Shown here one piece after another: positions 1,673 to 21,633 of a stretch of 64,000 bases of DNA; position 1 is the first letter of the stretch; each line of letters starts with the position of its first letter. The translations under genes were made by a program, and so were the position numbers. The stretch spans positions 2,858,501-2,922,500 of the forward strand of contig NZ_CP107811.1 of the NCBI RefSeq assembly GCF_036346105.1, in the 5' to 3' direction. Below the pieces are notes generated by a model. That model saw only the letters and a list, made by a program, of their open reading frames with translations, did no database searches and was not told where the DNA came from. Source of the stretch: Streptomyces sp. NBC_00539 (lineage in GTDB: Bacteria; Actinomycetota; Actinomycetes; Streptomycetales; Streptomycetaceae).

Positions 1673-2292
1673 TGGATTGTTACCTTTCGTCCCTCAATGC
1701 GGTAGCCGTGCCGGGCCAGGCGCCCCACGACGTCGACGAGCAGCGTGCGCTCGACTTCCTTGATGCGCTCATGGAGAGCGGCTTCGTCTTCCCCGTCCCG
1801 GATCTCGACGACACCCTGGGCGATGATGGGGCCGGTGTCCACGCCGCTGTCCACGAAATGGACGGTGCAGCCGGTGAACTTGGCGCCGTAGGCGAGGGCG
1901 TCGCGGACGCCGTGCGCGCCCGGGAAGGCGGGCAGCAGGGCGGGGTGGGTGTTGATGAACCGGCCGCCGAAGCGGTCCAGGAACTCCGGCCCGACGATCT
2001 TCATGAACCCGGCGGAGACCACCAGGTCCGGCTCGTGGGCGGCGGTGGCCGCGGTGAGTGCGGCGTCCCACTCCGCGCGGGTGGCGTACGCCTTGACCGG
2101 GCACACGAAGGTCGGGATCCCCGCCTTTTCCGCGCGCTCCAGGCCGACGATGCCGTCGCGGTCGGCGCCGACGGCGACGACCCGGGCGCCGAAGCCCTCG
2201 GGGCCGTCGGGGTGGGCGTCGATGGCGTCGAGCAGGGCCTGGAGGTTGGTGCCGGAACCGGAGACCAGCACGACCAGGCGAGAGGCGGCCAT
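1669..2292 (-). CDS. purN: Phosphoribosylglycinamide formyltransferase PurN
   Basis: Transfers a formyl group from 10-formyl-THF to GAR in purine synthesis. The 207-residue product begins [16 protein letters not shown], the family's phosphate-binding start, and contains [14 protein letters not shown] with the catalytic His and the DTGPII segment. I chose ATG 2292 because AAAGGG lies 6 nt upstream and the family N-terminus starts here. An upstream ATG at 2316 would add MPPKKGPP and is less likely. It is the first gene of a purN-purH operon with a 4-nt stop/start overlap. The promoter should lie in 2293-2400. Confidence 0.95.
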
Positions 2293-2348
2293 GGGAGGCC
2301 CTTTCTTGGGGGGCATCGCTTGCACTTGTACGGTCATACGAAACTCCG

Positions 2349-2370
2349 GGTCCCCGATATACGGGGAACC
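2349..2370. promoter_or_regulatory. Imperfect palindrome upstream of purN
   Basis: In the 231-bp divergent gap (2293-2523) between purN and the next gene, TCCCCG and CGGGGA flank an AT-rich ATATA core, 57 bp upstream of the purN start. It could be an operator or a hairpin in the purN leader. No convincing -35/-10 pair was found in the gap, so the assignment is tentative. Confidence 0.3.
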
Positions 2371-2523
2371 ATACGAAGCGGCGGACCGCCTGCAACGATA
2401 CCGGCACACGGGACCGCCCCCGGGGGACGGGGGCACGGCCGGGCGGTAGCGTGAGGCGACGCGACGTGGCTCACGCCGACGCGCCGACGCCACGCCCACG
2501 ACACAGGGGAAGTAACGCACTCG

Positions 2524-3063
2524 ATGCCGGACCGCCGTCAGCCCGACTCTTCGACCGACGACAACCCCTTCGCAGCGCCGCCCGAGGGCAGGCCCGACGA
2601 GCCGTGGCAGCCGCGCGGCGGCCCCGGTCACACCGGCCCCGGCGGCCCCGGCCAGGACCCGGCCCCCGGGGGTCCGGCCCGCTGGGACCCGACGGACCCG
2701 CTCCAGCGCCGCGCCCGCTACGCGTTGTTCGCAGGCATGTGGGGGTTCTTCTTCGGCGTTTTCGGGATCCCGTCGGTGGGCCTCCTGCTGGGCGCACTCG
2801 CGCTGTACTGGGGCATCAGCGCCCTCCGCGCCGGCGTCGCCGACCTCGGCCCGGCGGCCCGCCCCCAGCGCACGGCGGCGGTCAGCGGCCTGGTGACGGC
2901 GACGCTCGCCCTGCTGCTGGCGTCGAGCTCGTACGCGGTCCAGCTGGCGTACAAGGACTTCTACGTCTGCCGCGACGACGCCCTGACGCGCACGGCCGAA
3001 CTCGAATGCAACACCCTCCTCCCGGACAACCTGGTGGGCAAGGCCCTCAAGGTCCGCCAGTAA
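2524..3063 (+). CDS. Small membrane protein of unknown function
   Basis: A 179-residue protein I cannot name. The first ~60 residues are Pro/Gly/Asp-rich and probably cytosolic. Two hydrophobic segments follow (about 65-95 and 118-143), then a short tail with two Cys (YVCRDD and LECNTLL) that may be extracytoplasmic and disulphide-bonded. This resembles the small DUF4190-like membrane proteins common in Streptomyces, but that is only a resemblance. The ATG at 2524 is preceded by GGGGAAG about 11 nt away. It is divergent from purN and convergent with the DUF6350-like gene. Confidence 0.7.
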   Translation: MPDRRQPDSSTDDNPFAAPPEGRPDEPWQPRGGPGHTGPGGPGQDPAPGGPARWDPTDPLQRRARYALFAGMWGFFFGVFGIPSVGLLLGALALYWGISALRAGVADLGPAARPQRTAAVSGLVTATLALLLASSSYAVQLAYKDFYVCRDDALTRTAELECNTLLPDNLVGKALKVRQ

Positions 3064-3082
3064 CCGACCGACGGGGGTTACC

Positions 3083-3190
3083 GGCCCGCCGGGGCAGCCT
3101 CAGCCCCGCGGGGCCAATCCCAGCCCCGCCGACAATTCCAGGCCCGCCGGGGCAATTGCAGGCCCGGCGGGGCATTTTCAGCCCCGCCGG
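3083..3190. repeat. Tandem 20-bp GC-rich repeats ending in a hairpin
   Basis: Five imperfect units begin at 3083, 3103, 3123 (18 bp), 3141 and 3161. Each reads roughly GSCCCGCCGGGGCAATTNCA, and a sixth truncated copy starts at 3181. The array fills the gap between two convergent genes and runs into a sequence (3181-3230) of the kind often seen at gene ends in Streptomyces genomes. Confidence 0.75.
3164..3190. terminator. Terminator between convergent membrane-protein genes
   Basis: A perfect 10-bp stem (3164-3173 with 3181-3190) has a 7-nt ATTTTCA loop. It is formed by the last two repeat units of the tandem array and lies between two gene ends, so it probably stops transcription from both sides. 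Confidence 0.55.
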
Positions 3191-3241
3191 CGTTTGAGGC
3201 GCGGGGTCCGGGGCGGAGCCCCGGCAACGGCGCCGCGCCCG

Positions 3242-4861
3242 TCAGACCGCCGGCCGCCGCGACAGCACCCGCGCCCCGGACACCCCCGGCACCAACTCCG
3301 CCGCAACCGGCACGGCCGCCACCGCCCCCGACGGCGCGTCACCATCCGCGGCCGCCACCGCCCCCGACGGTACGTCACCATCCGCGGCCGCCACCGCCGC
3401 AGGCGACCCACCACCCTCCCCCTCAACCGCCGCCACCGCCGGCGGCTCGGCAACCCCCACCGACTCCACCGCCGGGGCGACCATCGGCACGGCCGCCTCC
3501 CGCAACGCCGCCCACCTCAGCTCCCGCACACCCGGGTCGTGCCACTCGTCCGCCACTTCCACCGCCCCCGCCCCCCTCACCGGCCGCACCCGCCACCCGT
3601 GCACCGCCACGGCCACCGGCACGGCCAGCACCACCGCCCACCCCACCGCCGCTCCCCCCACCTGCCACCACACCGGCCCGAACCGCACCAGCTCCCGCGA
3701 TCCCAGCGGCCCCGCCGCCACCGCCGCGAGCCCCGCCATCAGCACCCCGCACACCACCGCCCCCAGCACCGCCGTCCACGCGGTCTCCCCGTACGAGACC
3801 TCCCGCGCCCGCCGCACCGCGAACCACCCCACCGCCAGCCCCGCCACGACCGGCACGGCGAACGCCGCCCACGTCAGCGGCGTCCCCGCCCCCGCCCCCG
3901 GCAGCGCCGCCAGCAGCGGGAACCTCGGCAGCGCCGCATGCGATCCCACAGAGCCGAACGGTGTCGCCGTCGCCCCCGCACCCAGCGCGAAGCCCGGCCC
4001 CAGGCCGTAGGCCGCGCCCCACACCATCGCGTTCGGGACCAGCGTCACCGCCAGCAGCAACACCGCGAACCGCCCCGACCACACCCCGGTCAGCCCCAGG
4101 AACGACCCCCGCACCTCCGCCCCGTGCCACACCAGCGACGCCCCGACCAGCAGCACGCCACCGCCCACCAGCACCAGGGCCCCCGCCGCACCCGAGCGCA
4201 GCGCCAGCTCGTAACGGGGGCGCGCGATGGCCCTCCGTACGCCCCCCGCCGCCCAGCCCGGCACCCACCGCGGGAACTCGCCCAGCGGCCTCCCCCGCGC
4301 CGCCCACACCCCGCTCGCTGCGGCCAGTACGGCCACCAGCGGCACGTGCCACGCCGCGCTCAGCGGGTCGGCCGGCATGGGACCGACCGAGGCGTAGACC
4401 GTCGCCAGCGCCCCGACGCCGAGGTAGCCGCAGGTCACCGCCGAGAACACGACACCGGCCGGCAGCACCTCGTCGTCGCCCGGGCCGTCCGCCCGGCCGT
4501 CGCCCGAGGCGCTGCCCAGCCGCGCGGCCCGCCGCATCAGCAGCACCGGCAGGGCCACCAGCAGCAACGGCGTCACCCCGACGGGTGCGGGCACCCCCGA
4601 CAGGGTTTCGTAGCGCACGAGTTCGGTCCCGTGGGCGAGCAGCCACAGCCCGGCCGCGAGGTGCAGCGCGCCGCCGGGGCCGCTGTCCGGATAGGGGGAG
4701 CTGATCCACAGCACGATCACGAGCACGGCCAGGAAGCCGAGCCCCAGTCCTGCGGCCACGGCGCCGCCCAGCACACACGCGGCGGCCGCCGGCGAGCGGC
4801 GCCGCACGGAGGCCGGCGGGGCCGCCGGCAACGAGGTACCGCGTTCGGTCACTTGGGTCAC
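3242..4861 (-). CDS. Multi-pass membrane protein, DUF6350-like
   Basis: A 539-residue polytopic membrane protein with about ten hydrophobic segments, starting at [20 protein letters not shown]. It resembles the DUF6350 family found beside purN/purH in streptomycetes. The function is unknown. The last ~120 residues are a low-complexity tail rich in Ala, Val and Glu. The GTG start at 4861 ([10 protein letters not shown]) is the most natural, but its ribosome site is weak (ACGGG), and an in-frame ATG at 4987 would add about 42 residues. It diverges from the XRE/sigma-like gene across an AT-rich 119-bp gap. Confidence 0.75.
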
Positions 4862-8990: not shown

Positions 8991-10157
8991 TCACGGGACG
9001 GGCAGCGGCCGCTTCTCCAGGGCGGCGGCCATCACGTCGGGGAAGAGGTCGGGGGTGCAGGCGAAGGCGGGTGCGCCGAGTGCGGCCAGAGCCGCCGCGT
9101 GCTCGCGGTCGTAGGCCGGGGCGCCTTCGTCGGACAGGGCGAGCAGGGTCACGAACTCCACCCCGGCGGCCTTCATCGCGGCGACCCGCTTGAGCATCCC
9201 GTCGCGTATCCCGCCCTCGTAGAGATCACTGATCAGGACCACGACGGTGTCGGCCGGCCGGGTGATCCTGGACTGGCAGTAGGCGAGGGCCCGGTTGATG
9301 TCGGTGCCGCCGCCGAGCTGGGTGCCGAAGAGCACGTCGACGGGATCGTCGAGCTGGTCCGTGAGGTCCACGACGGCGGTGTCGAACACCACCAGCCAGG
9401 TGGCGATCGTCCGCATCGAGGCGAGCACCGCCCCGAAGACCGAGGCGTAGACGACGGAGGCCGCCATCGAACCCGACTGGTCGATGCAGAGGATGACCTC
9501 CTTCTTCATGGACTGCGCCGCCCGGCCGTATCCGACCAGCCGTTCCGGGACGACGGTGCGGTACTCGGGGAGGTAGTTCTTGAGGTTGGCGCGGATCGTC
9601 CGGTCCCAGTCGATGTCCCGGTGACGGGGGCGGCTGATGCGGGCGGAGCGGTCGAGGGCTCCGGTGAGGGTGGCGCGGGTACGGGTCGCGAGGCGCTCCT
9701 CCAGCTGCCGGACCACCTTGGCGACCACCGTGCGGGCGGTCTCGCGGGTCGTCTCCGGCATGGCCTTGTTGAGGGAGAGCAGGGTGCCGACGAGGTGGAC
9801 GTCCGGTTCCACCGCCTCCAGCATCTCCGGCTCCAGCAGCAGGGAGGACAGGCCGAGCCGCTCGATGGCGTCCCGCTGCATGACCTGCACCACGGAGCCG
9901 GGGAAATACGTCCTGATGTCCCCGAGCCAGCGGGCCACCTGCGGCGCGGACCCGCCGAGCCCGGCCGACCGCTCCCCCGTCCTCTTGCGGGAGCCGCCGC
10001 CGCTCTGGCCGTACAGCGCCGTGAGCGCGGCGTCCATCTCCGCGTCGCGGCCGGAGAGCGAGCAGCCGGTGCCCTCGCCCTCGCCTCCCCCGAGCACCAT
10101 CCGCCACCGCCGCAGCCGCTCGCCCGCGTCCGTCGGCCGTCCCGTACCGGTCTCCAT
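8991..10157 (-). CDS. VWA-domain protein of MoxR-associated cassette
   Basis: A 388-residue cytosolic protein. The C-terminal half (from ~190) is a von Willebrand A domain with a complete metal-ion site: DQSGSM, the Thr in GGGTDINRAL, and the Asp in LISDLYEGG. The N-terminal half is helical and has no signal peptide or membrane segment. The ATG at 10157 follows a purine-rich site (GAGGGGGA). It is the last gene of the minus-strand arm AAA-DUF5682-VWA, 89 bp after the DUF5682-like gene. By analogy with other MoxR-VWA pairs, it probably acts as an adaptor or effector for the AAA ATPase; the substrate is unknown. Confidence 0.85.
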   Translation of the reverse strand: METGTGRPTDAGERLRRWRMVLGGGEGEGTGCSLSGRDAEMDAALTALYGQSGGGSRKRTGERSAGLGGSAPQVARWLGDIRTYFPGSVVQVMQRDAIERLGLSSLLLEPEMLEAVEPDVHLVGTLLSLNKAMPETTRETARTVVAKVVRQLEERLATRTRATLTGALDRSARISRPRHRDIDWDRTIRANLKNYLPEYRTVVPERLVGYGRAAQSMKKEVILCIDQSGSMAASVVYASVFGAVLASMRTIATWLVVFDTAVVDLTDQLDDPVDVLFGTQLGGGTDINRALAYCQSRITRPADTVVVLISDLYEGGIRDGMLKRVAAMKAAGVEFVTLLALSDEGAPAYDREHAAALAALGAPAFACTPDLFPDVMAAALEKRPLPVP

Positions 10158-10246: not shown

Positions 10247-12517
10247 TCAGTCCGCTCCCACCCCCGCCCCGGCGAGCAGCATGCGGACCACGTCCGCCAC
10301 CGCGTCCGCGCGGACGGGGTCCAACTCCCGGCCGAAGCCCTCGGGGGCCGGGCCGGGCCCCGCGGTGCGCGCCCGGGCGGCCGGTCCCCGCCGGACCAGT
10401 TCGCCCAGGGCCCGCTTCACGCCCGGCTCGTACGCCCCGAAGGTCCGCCGCAGCAGGGGCAGTACGTCGACGAAGGCACCCGCCGGCACCGACACCAGCC
10501 AGGCGTCGATCAGGCCGAGCAGCCGCTCGTCGTGGACCAGCAGGGTGCCGCCGCCCGCGCTGCCGCCGGCGAAGCCCTCGATCCAGCCCGCGGCGTCGGC
10601 CGGGGTGGCCGCCGGGGACAGCGCGAGCCCCATCAGCCGCGCCGTCTCCTCGGGCGGGAGCCTGCCGTCGTCCAGGAGCAGCCGTACGGCCCGGCCCCTG
10701 ATCAGCCCGGGCACGGTGTCCCGGCCGGCCAGCGTCCGCAGCACCGCCGCCCAGCGCTCGCGCAGCCCCTCGTCGGCGTCGGCCAGCAGGGCGATCGCCC
10801 CGTGGACGGCGTCGACGTGCCCCCGTAGCTCCGCCGCACCGTCGGCGTCCGCCCCGGCCGCGCAGGCGGGTGGCAGGGCCACGCATATCCGCTCCGCGAG
10901 CCCGGCGGCCACGGTGGCGAGCGCCTGCGCGTCGGTGCCCCGTACGTCCCCGTACCGCAGCGAGCGGGCCAGCGCGGGCAGCGCCTCGGCGAGGCGTGCC
11001 ACATCGGTGTCGAGTGCGGCCCGGTCCGCGAGGGCCCGCAGTACGGCGGGCAGGGCCTCGGAAAGCCCGGCCAGGAGGCACTGTTCGGCCAGGGCGGTGA
11101 CCTCGCCCAGTTCGGCGGCGTCCGCCGCGAGCGCCTCGGCCCGGGCGGTGGCCGCCCCCAGGACGGTCGTGCCCCAGATCCCCGCCTCCGCGACCCGCAC
11201 CGACAGCTCGGGCTCCCAGCGCAGCCGCCACGTCTCCCGGAACGTGCCGGTGCTGCCGCGGGAGGCGGTGGGTACGCCCCAGTCGATGCCGAGCAGCCGC
11301 AGCCGGTGCAGCAGCGAGGACTTGGCCGCGTCGGTGTCCTTGCGCAGGTCCAGTTCCAGCTCGCGGTCCTGTGCCTCCGCCTTGAGGCGCAGGGACCGCT
11401 GTCTGCGGGTGAGGTCCCGCTGGAGCGGTACGACGGGCGCCGCGTCCGGGACTTCGCCCAGTACGTCCCCGACCACCAGGCGGTCCTCGATCAGGGCGAG
11501 CGGTATGTCGGAGCCGTCGCACATGACCGCCCGTACCGCTTCGAGGGTCTCGGTGAGGCCGGGCACCGGCCGCCCCCGCACGGCGGCGAGGGTCTGCGCG
11601 AGCCGTACCGCCTCTATGACGTGGGCGGAGGAGACCTGCCGGTCCTCCTCCCGGAGCAGGCCCGCGACCTTGGTCAGCCAGCGCTCGACGGGCCGGTCGC
11701 GGGCGGTGAAGAGGTGCGCGTACCAGCCGGGCGAGGTGATGCCGGCGCCGTATCCCCCGGCGCGGGCGAGCCGGCGGTGCGTCCAGGGAACCCAGGTGGT
11801 CTCCACCTTGATCTTGGGGAGTCCGGTCAGCAGTGCCTTGTCGGCGGAGGCCGTGGCCGGGGCGCGCAGGGCCGGGACGTGCCAGGCCCCGCAGACCACG
11901 GCGTAGCTGTCGCCGAACTCGCGGCGGGCGGCCCGCATCCGCTGGCGCATGTACGCCTCCCGCACCAGGTCGCGCGGGTTGCCGCCGCAGCCGTACGCCT
12001 CGCGCAGCGCGCCCATCGCTTCACCGAGGGCTTCGAACGCGGCCAGGGGGTCTTCCCGTACGGCGTCACGGTGCTCGACGACGTCCTCCCACCAGCGCTC
12101 GGGGTCGTCGTACCCGGCGCTTTCGGCGAGCACCGCGAGCGGCTCGACCCGTACGGAGTCGGGCCGCTCCTCCTGGTCCTCGGTCACGGCCAGCGAGTGC
12201 GCGGCGGGGAGGTCGATGAACCGGACGGGCACCTCCCGCTCCTGGGCCCAGCGGATGGCGGCCCACTCCGGGGAGAACCCGGCCAGCGGCCAGAACGCGG
12301 CCCGCCCCGGATCGTCCGCGGCGTGGGCGAGCAGGGCGACGGGCGGTCGCATCTGCGGGTCGGCGGCGAGCGGCAGCAGCGCGTCCCCTTCCGGCGGCCC
12401 CTCTATGAGCACCGCCGCCGGCCGGACTCGGTCCAGCGCGGCCCGCACCGCGCGGGCGGAGCCCGGTCCGTGGTGGCGGACCCCCAGCAGGAGGGGTCCC
12501 CCGGTGCGCGGGTTCAT
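10247..12517 (-). CDS. DUF5682-family protein of MoxR-VWA cassette
   Basis: A 756-residue protein that opens with GVRHHGPGSARAVRAAL and then IEGPPEGDALLPL, the signature I associate with DUF5682. The His pair and Asp/Glu residues at the N-terminus look like a possible catalytic or metal site, but no activity is established. The rest is Ala/Leu/Arg-rich helical sequence, perhaps repeats. Its start overlaps the AAA gene's stop by 4 nt, so the two are translationally coupled, and the VWA gene follows. Confidence 0.8.
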   Translation of the reverse strand: MNPRTGGPLLLGVRHHGPGSARAVRAALDRVRPAAVLIEGPPEGDALLPLAADPQMRPPVALLAHAADDPGRAAFWPLAGFSPEWAAIRWAQEREVPVRFIDLPAAHSLAVTEDQEERPDSVRVEPLAVLAESAGYDDPERWWEDVVEHRDAVREDPLAAFEALGEAMGALREAYGCGGNPRDLVREAYMRQRMRAARREFGDSYAVVCGAWHVPALRAPATASADKALLTGLPKIKVETTWVPWTHRRLARAGGYGAGITSPGWYAHLFTARDRPVERWLTKVAGLLREEDRQVSSAHVIEAVRLAQTLAAVRGRPVPGLTETLEAVRAVMCDGSDIPLALIEDRLVVGDVLGEVPDAAPVVPLQRDLTRRQRSLRLKAEAQDRELELDLRKDTDAAKSSLLHRLRLLGIDWGVPTASRGSTGTFRETWRLRWEPELSVRVAEAGIWGTTVLGAATARAEALAADAAELGEVTALAEQCLLAGLSEALPAVLRALADRAALDTDVARLAEALPALARSLRYGDVRGTDAQALATVAAGLAERICVALPPACAAGADADGAAELRGHVDAVHGAIALLADADEGLRERWAAVLRTLAGRDTVPGLIRGRAVRLLLDDGRLPPEETARLMGLALSPAATPADAAGWIEGFAGGSAGGGTLLVHDERLLGLIDAWLVSVPAGAFVDVLPLLRRTFGAYEPGVKRALGELVRRGPAARARTAGPGPAPEGFGRELDPVRADAVADVVRMLLAGAGVGAD

Positions 12518-13620
12518 GCCGTCACCTCCCGGCAGGCGCGGTAGAAGTCCTTCCAGCCGTCCCGCTCGCGGACGACGGCTTCGAGGTACTCCTGCCAGAC
12601 CACCCGGTCGGCGGCCGGGTCGCGGACCACGGCACCGAGGATGCCGGCCGCCACGTCGGAGGGGCGCAGGACGCCGTCCCCGAAGTGGGCGGCCAGGGCC
12701 AGGCCGCCGGTGACCACGGAGATGGCCTCGGCGGTGGACAGGGTGCCGCTGGGTGACTTGACCTTGGTCCGGCCGTCGCCGGTGACCCCGTCGCGCAGCT
12801 CGCGGAAGACGGTGACGACGCGGCGGATCTCCTCCAGGCCCTCGGGCGCCGCCGGCAGGTCCAGGGCGCGGCCCATCTGGTCGACGCGGCGGGCGACGAT
12901 GTCGACCTCGGCGTCCGCGGTGGCGGGCAGGGGCAGCACCACTGTGTTGAAGCGGCGGCGCAGCGCGCTGGAGAGCTCGTTGACCCCGCGGTCACGGTCG
13001 TTGGCGGTGGCGATGAGGTTGAAGCCGCGCACGGCCTGCACCTCCTGGCCGAGCTCCGGTATGGGGAGCGTCTTCTCGGACAGGACGGTGATGAGGGTGT
13101 CCTGGACATCTGCGGGGATACGGGTGAGTTCCTCGACGCGGGCGGTCATGCCGTCGGCCATGGCCCGCATGACGGGGCTGGGGACGAGGGCTTCGCGGCT
13201 GGGGCCGTGGGCCAGGAGACGGGCGTAGTTCCAGCCGTAGCGGATGGCTTCCTCGGGGGTGCCGGCGGTGCCTTGCACCAGGAGGGTGGAGTCCCCGCTG
13301 ACGGCTGCGGCGAGGTGCTCGGACACCCAGGTCTTCGCGGTGCCGGGGACTCCGAGCAGGAGCAGCGCGCGGTCGGTGGCCAGCGTGGTGACGGCGACTT
13401 CGACGATGCGGCGCGGACCGACGTACTTGGGCGTGATCACGGTGCCGTCGTCCAGTGTGCCGCCGAGCAGGTAGGTGGCGACGGCCCACGGGGAGAGCTT
13501 CCAGCGGGTCGGGCGGGGCCGGTCGTCGGCGGCCGCCAGGGCTTTCAGTTCGTGTGCGAAGGCGTCTTCGGCGTGCGGTCGCAGTGCCTCTGCGCGGTGT
13601 TCGGTCTCGGGCGTGCTCAT
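12514..13620 (-). CDS. MoxR-type AAA ATPase
   Basis: A 368-residue ATPase. Walker A is GVPGTAKT (about residues 100-107). The Walker B region reads ARVEELTRI, with Glu where an Asp-Glu pair is usual. Sensor 1 is FNLIATANDRDRGVNEL and the arginine finger lies in SSALRRRFNTV. This is the MoxR/AAA_5 type that works as a chaperone-like remodeller together with VWA partners. First gene of the minus-strand arm; ATG 13620 has a strong GGAGGGGG site. The promoter is probably the TTGTCAGTG element at 13679-13687. Confidence 0.88.
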   Translation of the reverse strand: MSTPETEHRAEALRPHAEDAFAHELKALAAADDRPRPTRWKLSPWAVATYLLGGTLDDGTVITPKYVGPRRIVEVAVTTLATDRALLLLGVPGTAKTWVSEHLAAAVSGDSTLLVQGTAGTPEEAIRYGWNYARLLAHGPSREALVPSPVMRAMADGMTARVEELTRIPADVQDTLITVLSEKTLPIPELGQEVQAVRGFNLIATANDRDRGVNELSSALRRRFNTVVLPLPATADAEVDIVARRVDQMGRALDLPAAPEGLEEIRRVVTVFRELRDGVTGDGRTKVKSPSGTLSTAEAISVVTGGLALAAHFGDGVLRPSDVAAGILGAVVRDPAADRVVWQEYLEAVVRERDGWKDFYRACREVTA

Positions 13621-13664
13621 GGTCCCCCTCCAATGCTCGGCAGCCGCTTCCGACTGCTGACACC

Positions 13665-13687
13665 ACGGTGCACCACCCCACTGACAA
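13665..13687 (-). promoter_or_regulatory. PafBC/RecA-NDp-like promoter for the AAA-DUF5682-VWA arm
   Basis: On the minus strand TTGTCAGTG (13687-13679), eight bases, then CACCGT (13670-13665). The upstream element matches the RecA-independent DNA-damage promoter TTGTCRGTG-N8-TANNNT exactly; the -10 differs at its first base. A start about 7 nt further would leave a ~38-nt leader before the AAA gene. Confidence 0.6.
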
Positions 13688-13724
13688 CGGCCTTCGCTGG
13701 AGGCGTCGTTGCAGGTCAGGGCGA

Positions 13725-13747
13725 TTGTCAGTGGGGGTCTCTACGGT
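13725..13747 (+). promoter_or_regulatory. PafBC/RecA-NDp promoter for the SWIM gene
   Basis: TTGTCAGTG (13725-13733), exactly eight bases, then TACGGT (13742-13747): a full match to TTGTCRGTG-N8-TANNNT, the LexA-independent damage promoter activated by PafBC in mycobacteria. A transcription start 7-8 nt downstream falls on the ATG at 13755, so this mRNA is probably leaderless. Confidence 0.75.
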
Positions 13748-20538: not shown

Positions 20539-21633
20539 GTGGAGAACGAGATGCGCAGTATCGGCGAGATGGCCCGCGACAGCGGACTGGGCGTGAGCGC
20601 CCTGCGGTTCTACGACGGCGCCGGCGTTCTGGTACCGGCGCGGGTGGATCCGGTGACCGGCTACCGCTGGTACGGCCCGGAGCAGCTCGAAGAGTCCCGG
20701 TTGCTGGCCCGGCTGCGCCGTACCGGTATGCCGCTGGCCGACATCCGGCTCGTCCTGGCCGGATGGTCCGGCAGGGACACCGACTTGGTACGCCGGCTGC
20801 TCCAGGCGCATCTGCGCCGTCTCGAACTGGGGCTGTCCGACGCCCGCAACGAGTTCTCCACGATCCGAGCGCTACTCGAAAACAGGGAGAACCCGATGGC
20901 TTCGCTCCACACCGCCCCGATCCGGCTGACCGTCTCCGCACCCGAACTGGCCGCCGCCCTGGACGCGGTGCGCTTCGCCGTCGGCAGCGACCCGGAACTG
21001 CCGGTGCTCGGCGGCGTCCTGTTCGACATCGAGGGCGACGGACTCCGTGTCGTGGCCACCGACCGGTACCGGATGGCTGTCGCAGCGGCCCGTACCGCCG
21101 GCCACGGCGGCCCCCGAGTGCAGGTCGTCGTGCCGTCCCCGCTCGCCGACGCGATGCGGGCGCTGCTCGGTGACGACGCCTCCGCCGAACTCACCGTGGA
21201 CGCAGACCGCGTGGCCCTGGAGACGGCGGACCGTGAAGTGGCCGGCCGACGCCTCGACCACGACTTTCCCGACTACCGTCGCCTCGTTCGCCTGCCGGCG
21301 GGCCGGCGGGCCCTCGTCGACGTCCCGGCCCTCCGCGAGGCGGTGGAAACCGGCCCCGTCCGCGCGGGCGTGGTGCGGGAGCCGGACGGCGTGCCCTGCG
21401 AGCTGACCGTGCTCAAGGTGGCGGCCGACGGCGTGGTCACCGTGTGCGAAGACGGTGACGACGACCGGGACCAGGTCGCCGTCAACCGCGAGTTCCTGCT
21501 GCACGCCCTCGCCGCCGGAGCCCGGGACCGGCTGGTCCTGGAGTTCGGCGCGCCGACGGCGCCCCTGGCGATCCGCCGGAGCGACAGCGAGGACACGTTC
21601 TCCCTGCTGATGCCGTTCCGCCTGGACGACTGA
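20539..21633 (+). CDS. MerR regulator fused to DNA sliding-clamp domains
   Basis: A 364-residue fusion. Residues ~5-75 form a MerR helix-turn-helix (SIGEMARDSGLGVSALRFYD, GYRWYGPEQL), followed by the usual dimerisation helix. Residues ~120-364 resemble domains 2 and 3 of the replication clamp DnaN: RFAVGSDPELPVLGGVLFDI, VVATDRYRMAVAAA, DFPDYRRLV, and the end SLLMPFRL. Clamp domain 1 is missing. The C-terminal half may serve as ligand-sensing or protein-binding domain rather than in replication. The GTG at 20539 fits a leaderless start; ATG 20551 with GGAG is the alternative. Confidence 0.85.
   Translation: MENEMRSIGEMARDSGLGVSALRFYDGAGVLVPARVDPVTGYRWYGPEQLEESRLLARLRRTGMPLADIRLVLAGWSGRDTDLVRRLLQAHLRRLELGLSDARNEFSTIRALLENRENPMASLHTAPIRLTVSAPELAAALDAVRFAVGSDPELPVLGGVLFDIEGDGLRVVATDRYRMAVAAARTAGHGGPRVQVVVPSPLADAMRALLGDDASAELTVDADRVALETADREVAGRRLDHDFPDYRRLVRLPAGRRALVDVPALREAVETGPVRAGVVREPDGVPCELTVLKVAADGVVTVCEDGDDDRDQVAVNREFLLHALAAGARDRLVLEFGAPTAPLAIRRSDSEDTFSLLMPFRLDD

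Follow-up and report, generated by a model that had tools for sequence, protein, structure and literature searches.

The locus considered here raises the question of whether two gene groups that point away from each other, and that together encode an uncharacterised machine, are controlled by the same kind of promoter, and to what signal such promoters would respond. The window, that is, the whole 64,000-nucleotide stretch of Streptomyces sp. NBC_00539 DNA that was analysed, contains a cassette of five genes in which the leftward half (MoxR, DUF5682 and VWA_CoxE genes) and the rightward half (SWIM and DUF5691 genes) are separated by a gap of 134 bp between the two ATG codons (MoxR, 13620, minus strand; SWIM, 13755, plus strand). 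The original prediction placed in this gap back-to-back promoters of the type used by the DNA damage activator PafBC. The relevant features are collected in Table 1.

Table 1. Features of the cassette, of the divergent gap and of the neighbouring pcrA/uvrD region (window coordinates)
Feature	Position	Strand	Basis or remark
VWA_CoxE protein, 386 aa, YehP-like	8991..10151	-	Pfam PF05762; start codon approximate
DUF5682 protein, 756 aa, YehM-like	10247..12517	-	Pfam PF18934
MoxR-type AAA+ ATPase (AAA_5), 368 aa, YehL-like	12514..13620	-	Pfam PF07728
Shine-Dalgarno-like GGAGGGGGA before the MoxR ATG	13623..13631	-	sequence reading
Minus promoter, RecA-NDp/PafBC-type, MoxR half, CANNNT variant	13665..13687	-	sequence reading, conservation
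Minus box TTGTCAGTG	13687-13679	-
Minus spacer GGGTGGTG	13678-13671	-
Minus -10-like CACCGT	13670-13665	-
Plus promoter, RecA-NDp/PafBC-type, SWIM half	13725..13747	+	sequence reading, motif scan, conservation
Plus box TTGTCAGTG	13725-13733	+
Plus spacer GGGGTCTC	13734-13741	+
Plus -10-like TACGGT	13742-13747	+
12-bp arms of the inverted repeat	13676-13687 / 13725-13736		perfect complements
Putative leaderless SWIM transcript start, A of ATG, 7 nt after the -10	13755	+	inferred
SWIM zinc-finger protein, 445 aa	13755..15092	+	Pfam PF04434
DUF5691 protein, 589 aa	15186..16955	+	Pfam PF18944
MerR-type helix-turn-helix/sliding clamp fusion	20539-21633	+
pcrA/uvrD gene	24188-21693	-
Degenerate RecA-NDp site TTGTCGGTC-N8-TAGACT before pcrA/uvrD	24220-24198	-	one mismatch

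Direct reading of the sequence bears out, at the coordinates originally given, the two perfect, outward-facing copies of TTGTCAGTG on which the prediction was built, the exact fit of the plus copy to TTGTCRGTG-N8-TANNNT, with the site ending 7 nt 5' of the SWIM ATG, and the combination, in the minus copy, of an exact upstream element with a near-match -10. The minus site carries the TTGTCRGTG box but has CACCGT in place of TANNNT, and is a variant of the textbook motif, not a strict member. TTGTCAGTG occurs twice in the 64-kb window, both times in the gap and facing outward, compared to a mean of 0.11 occurrences in the shuffled window, where 2 copies were reached in 0 of 100 shuffles; when 2 mismatches are tolerated, the complete motif matches the window 6 times vs 1.28 expected. 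The window had also been said to hold no other intergenic copy, which is correct for the perfect motif and incorrect for a one-mismatch copy that precedes pcrA/uvrD. Control by LexA was considered and rejected, the SOS box GAACN4GTTC recognised by LexA having no exact match in the whole window, gap included.

Promoters with this box are an established class. RecA-NDp promoters were described at recA of S. rimosus (Ahel 2002, as cited in PMC2375139 and PMC5087735) and the corresponding mycobacterial promoter is recA P1 (Gamulin 2004, as cited in later papers), the class being read by PafBC. SIGffRid assigned such promoters to 67 S. coelicolor genes (PMC2375139), and SCO6735 of the same species has a promoter of this type and is UV-inducible (PMC5087735). 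The cassette sites resemble the class in the box, in the 8-nt spacing and in the TANNNT -10 of the plus site, with a recA example known in the same genus; they differ in forming a divergent pair that faces two halves of a gene cluster, in the CANNNT -10 of the minus site and in the placement of the plus promoter 7 nt before a start codon. Among the open papers listed by our searches, we found none whose main text ties this cassette to DNA damage, and the list of 67 S. coelicolor genes might already include the SWIM or the MoxR gene. What is new is the occurrence of a known kind of promoter as a pair at the genes of an uncharacterised machine. On account of an initial search, which suggested that S. 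venezuelae does not conserve the M. smegmatis motif, a 2022 study left open whether Streptomyces has a LexA-independent response of the PafBC type (PMC9380542).

The scan of the genome for the motif, named as a check in the original prediction, gives 9 exact matches to TTGTCRGTG-N8-TANNNT in the 7.5-Mb genome of this strain and 0 for the backward control. The genes that follow include the repair-linked recA, dnaX and ung along with the SWIM gene; the others encode a YcaQ-like winged-helix protein, a WGR protein, a transport (ABC) permease, an 84-aa ORF and one unassigned protein (recA, dnaX and the YcaQ-like gene were named from sequence, and ung, WGR and the permease by Pfam). Given that exact motifs also precede genes without an evident repair role, the motif by itself does not make a gene a member of the regulon. 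The motif is present in 199 of the 199 Streptomyces genomes searched, in 5-44 copies each (control, 0-2). The genome-wide recurrence, several times before repair genes, along with the pafA-pafB-pafC block of this genome and the conservation and outgroup arrangement described below, supports the predicted promoter class, its arrangement and PafBC as the likely regulator. The WGR protein also contains a beta-propeller, and its gene (1909-3354, minus strand, of stretch L199) has the exact RecA-NDp site upstream, within stretch L007 of the same genome; E. coli yehF, which lies near yehLMPQ, encodes a WGR protein as well.

When the first base of the -10 is allowed to vary after TTGTCRGTG-N8, this genome contains 9 sites of the TA class, 15 of the CA class and 8 of the GA class, the last serving as a composition control, and 41 genomes together contain 1031, 842 and 535, respectively. 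The CA class thus stands modestly above the GA composition control, and a separate genome-wide class of CA-type promoters is not firmly established by these counts; possibly, the CA-type sites represent a second promoter subclass. Look-alikes of the minus promoter with GTGCACGAT ends are found in this genome at, among other places, 3010942-3010964 and 2021025-2021047.

The degenerate site before pcrA/uvrD begins 32 nt and ends 9 nt upstream of the ATG. All 30 of the Streptomyces pcrA loci compared (loci from 30 of 61 genomes) have a site at precisely this distance, with 0 mismatches in 7, 1 in 14 and 2 in 9. Here, as in five further Streptomyces genomes (G013, G016, G023, G026 and G056), approximately 10 kb separate pcrA from the cassette. 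The window also encodes a MerR-type helix-turn-helix fused to the central domain of the DNA polymerase III beta subunit (sliding clamp), which gives a weak PADLOC match to mad1.

The reading that we consider very probable is that the gap contains two independent, outward-facing RecA-NDp promoters which, activated by PafBC in response to single-stranded DNA, would raise the expression of both halves of a YehL-type MoxR/VWA/SWIM machine together. Under this scheme, DNA damage would generate single-stranded DNA that activates the WYL-domain protein PafBC; the winged helix of PafB would recognise the box approximately 26 bp before the start site, PafC would bridge to region 4 of the sigma factor of the housekeeping RNA polymerase, and transcription would start both ways, yielding a leaderless SWIM-DUF5691 mRNA to the right and a leadered MoxR-DUF5682-VWA mRNA to the left. 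The genome of the strain encodes the candidate regulator in a pafA-pafB-pafC block, with pafB and pafC behind pafA. The two proteins match the chains of 7p5x, which we take to be the M. smegmatis PafBC complex, with E-values of 4e-57 and 8.8e-47, respectively, the PafB alignment with the solved chain extending through the helix-turn-helix region. In mycobacteria, the WYL domains bind single-stranded DNA, while PafB is seated on the -26 motif and PafC on region 4 of sigma (PMC11804915).

The same two promoters could instead be read in Streptomyces by ClgR or by another WYL regulator. For M. smegmatis, recognition of this motif (the P1 motif) by ClgR has been reported as well (cited in PMC5656591), and the genome of this strain yields 11 WYL matches; set against this are the position of pafB and pafC behind pafA and the alignment of PafB with the solved chain through precisely the region, the helix-turn-helix, that engages the -26 motif in M. 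smegmatis (PMC11804915), so that a different activator appears unlikely.

The remaining alternatives to activation of two separate promoters by PafBC bear on the sites themselves, and are best judged by conservation. The Streptomyces comparison set consists of the best 80 of 563 confirmed named loci, all 80 from Streptomyces. The plus box is found in 80 of 80 (75 exact and 5 with the one-mismatch TTGTCAGAG), followed by a TANNNT -10 (T1, A2, T6) in all 80; the minus box is exact in 78, with CTGTCAGTG, one mismatch, the same spacing and the -10 CACGGT in the other 2, and CANNNT follows in all 78 exact minus sites, with A2 and T6 kept. The conservation scores of 0.99-1.00 for the boxes themselves reflect the fact that the boxes were chosen by pattern, the -10 being ignored in the choice. 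Not produced by this construction are the presence of a box in every locus, the uniformity of the -10s and the weak agreement upstream, which is 0.58 over 60 bp and drops to 0.53-0.54 once the set is dereplicated to 45 loci. The gap spans 124-261 bp in 68 of the 80 loci and 569-826 bp in the other 12, and even in these 12 wide gaps each gene is preceded by a box (on the MoxR side, 10 exact and 2 with one mismatch). At window 13665-13678 and in the Streptomyces relatives, the minus-promoter spacer, which contains the short palindrome GTGCAC, has a conservation of 0.93, as against 0.69 for that of the plus promoter.

An in-frame start codon lies 7 nt after the plus -10 in 78 of the 80 loci and 6 nt after it in the other 2, and it is this fixed distance, together with its being too short to accommodate a ribosome-binding site, that points to a leaderless SWIM mRNA. 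Counted from the putative start, the plus box spans -30 to -22, with its centre at -26. The MoxR transcript, for its part, would be leadered, with a predicted 5' UTR of about 37 nt, and the length of the leader on this side is variable among relatives.

Of 24 loci examined from other genera of the family, 19 are divergent, and both boxes are present in 19 of these 19 (0-2 mismatches). In genus g145 (loci L193 and L194), the halves lie kilobases apart and each keeps its own box. The 4 loci of genera g138 and g141 are co-directional, and the 1600 bp upstream of MoxR contain no box in any of them; for the two loci of g138, the SWIM start falls outside the stretch read, so the coverage does not extend to a box before SWIM. 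The g151 locus L176 has a MoxR box with 2 mismatches, and no SWIM gene was seen in the stretch read.

As an outgroup, we selected 40 loci from other families of the class, mainly by full-length DUF5682 matches and with the VWA gene outside the stretches; L163, with a distant MoxR and no SWIM gene, was dropped, leaving 39, and L136, where the contig ended before any SWIM gene, was set aside for the SWIM counts, leaving 38. The SWIM gene is co-directional with MoxR in 38 of 38, in the order SWIM-DUF5691-MoxR-DUF5682 (DUF5691 was undetected in one). A box and -10 with 0-2 mismatches lie just before SWIM in 25 of the 38 (22 in another count), the start codon following 7 nt after the -10 in 20 of the 25; the other 13 have no site within 2 mismatches before SWIM. 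Within 200 bp before MoxR, the box is found in 0 of 39 (the best candidate has 3 mismatches), while 148 of 4000 random windows of the same loci reach up to 2 mismatches. A look at 300 bp brings up a match with one mismatch in each of L150 and L153, inside the DUF5691 gene and 213 bp upstream of MoxR.

On the simplest reading of this distribution, the whole operon would originally have depended on a single RecA-NDp promoter, and the MoxR half would have gained its own at the split in Streptomycetaceae. A careful MoxR tree is in line with this, the 34 divergent rows falling on one branch (support 85/85), but 2 changes are required in a quick tree from which E. coli was omitted. The tree samples 13 of the 80 named Streptomyces loci plus the window, the label of L176 as divergent is assumed and the E. 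coli row has an implausibly long branch; for these reasons, the direction of change, from co-directional to divergent, is likely, not proven.

These comparisons bear on the possibility that a different promoter drives the MoxR half, the minus copy being a relic or a mere binding site. The uniform C at the first position of its -10, in 78 of 78 exact sites, fits this view, as does the modest excess of CA-type sites over the composition control; yet the box, the 8-nt spacing, A2 and T6 and the spacer (0.93) are all kept, the site accompanies MoxR even where the gap is wide and it is missing from the 200 bp before MoxR precisely where MoxR lies inside a co-directional operon (0/39). We accordingly give a relic little credence. 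It is very improbable that TTGTCA is an ordinary sigma-70 -35 box, which it resembles (TTGACA), and that the promoters are constitutive: the -35 and -10 elements of sigma-70 promoters are 16-18 nt apart, and the idea is rejected on the spacer of 11 nt found at both sites, the GTG that follows TTGTCA being, moreover, kept in 75 of the 80 plus and all 78 exact minus sites. Hardly tenable, finally, is a single palindromic operator through which a dimeric regulator would control both genes at once: the 12-bp arms, as originally described, are indeed perfect in the window, but they are merely the ends of two 23-bp promoters, each keeps its orientation to its own gene, variation sets in beyond the 9-mer and the minus arm lies 66-134 bp upstream of SWIM in short gaps and several hundred bp in the 12 wide ones, a variability on which we reject the operator and regard the inverted repeat as incidental to two separate promoters.

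What these two separate promoters would switch on is a machine with recognisable relatives. The start of the DUF5682 gene and the stop of MoxR overlap by 4 nt. The MoxR protein is 40% identical to E. coli YehL, the VWA_CoxE protein 37% identical to YehP and the DUF5682 protein 29% identical to YehM over 611 aligned columns; these three occur in the same order in E. coli yehLMPQ, and on identity and order together we assign the cassette to the YehL-type MoxR/VWA machines, YehL being one of seven MoxR subfamilies (PMC3893208). Both clusters also contain a SWIM gene, with YehQ and the cassette protein each matching the Pfam SWIM domain, and the alignment beyond the domain is not significant (E 0.26). 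The Streptomyces cassette differs from yehLMPQ in its gene order and in the additional DUF5691 protein, which is not alignable with YehQ. Among the open papers listed by our searches, as judged by titles and the beginnings of abstracts, we found no functional study of E. coli yehLMPQ, and none on DUF5682 or DUF5691 turned up either. The actinobacterial pairing of a MoxR ATPase with a vWA protein recalls the MoxR-vWA ternary systems (Kaur et al. 2020, PMC7159879); the cassette gives no general-Pfam match to VMAP, iSTAND or a related third component, with bpMoxR below the cut-off, and a search for the term 'SWIM' finds it absent from the main text of that paper. A role in anti-phage defence was considered and set aside, PADLOC giving no match for the MoxR, DUF5682, SWIM and DUF5691 proteins that made up the scan, and an NCBIfam scan of the same four proteins returned only MadB and GvpN for MoxR, far below the cut-offs.

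The position of conserved back-to-back promoters between the two halves of the machine ties it to DNA damage and suggests that the machine belongs to the DNA damage response. The link comes from an evolutionary pattern, in which divergent units each carry such a promoter, rather than from a single motif match. A more specific scenario, which we regard as evenly balanced on the genomic evidence, is that a YehL-type MoxR/VWA machine with SWIM serves as a dedicated actinobacterial DNA damage remodeller, in which the MoxR half gained a second PafBC promoter at the split and inversion and selection kept both halves inducible. If so, there would be a function for an operon related to E. coli yehLMPQ, and PafBC control would become directly testable in Streptomyces. 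The motif, present throughout the 199 genomes, bears on the question of a PafBC-type response in this genus as posed in PMC9380542, and the gap between the two halves would constitute a compact double reporter for that response.
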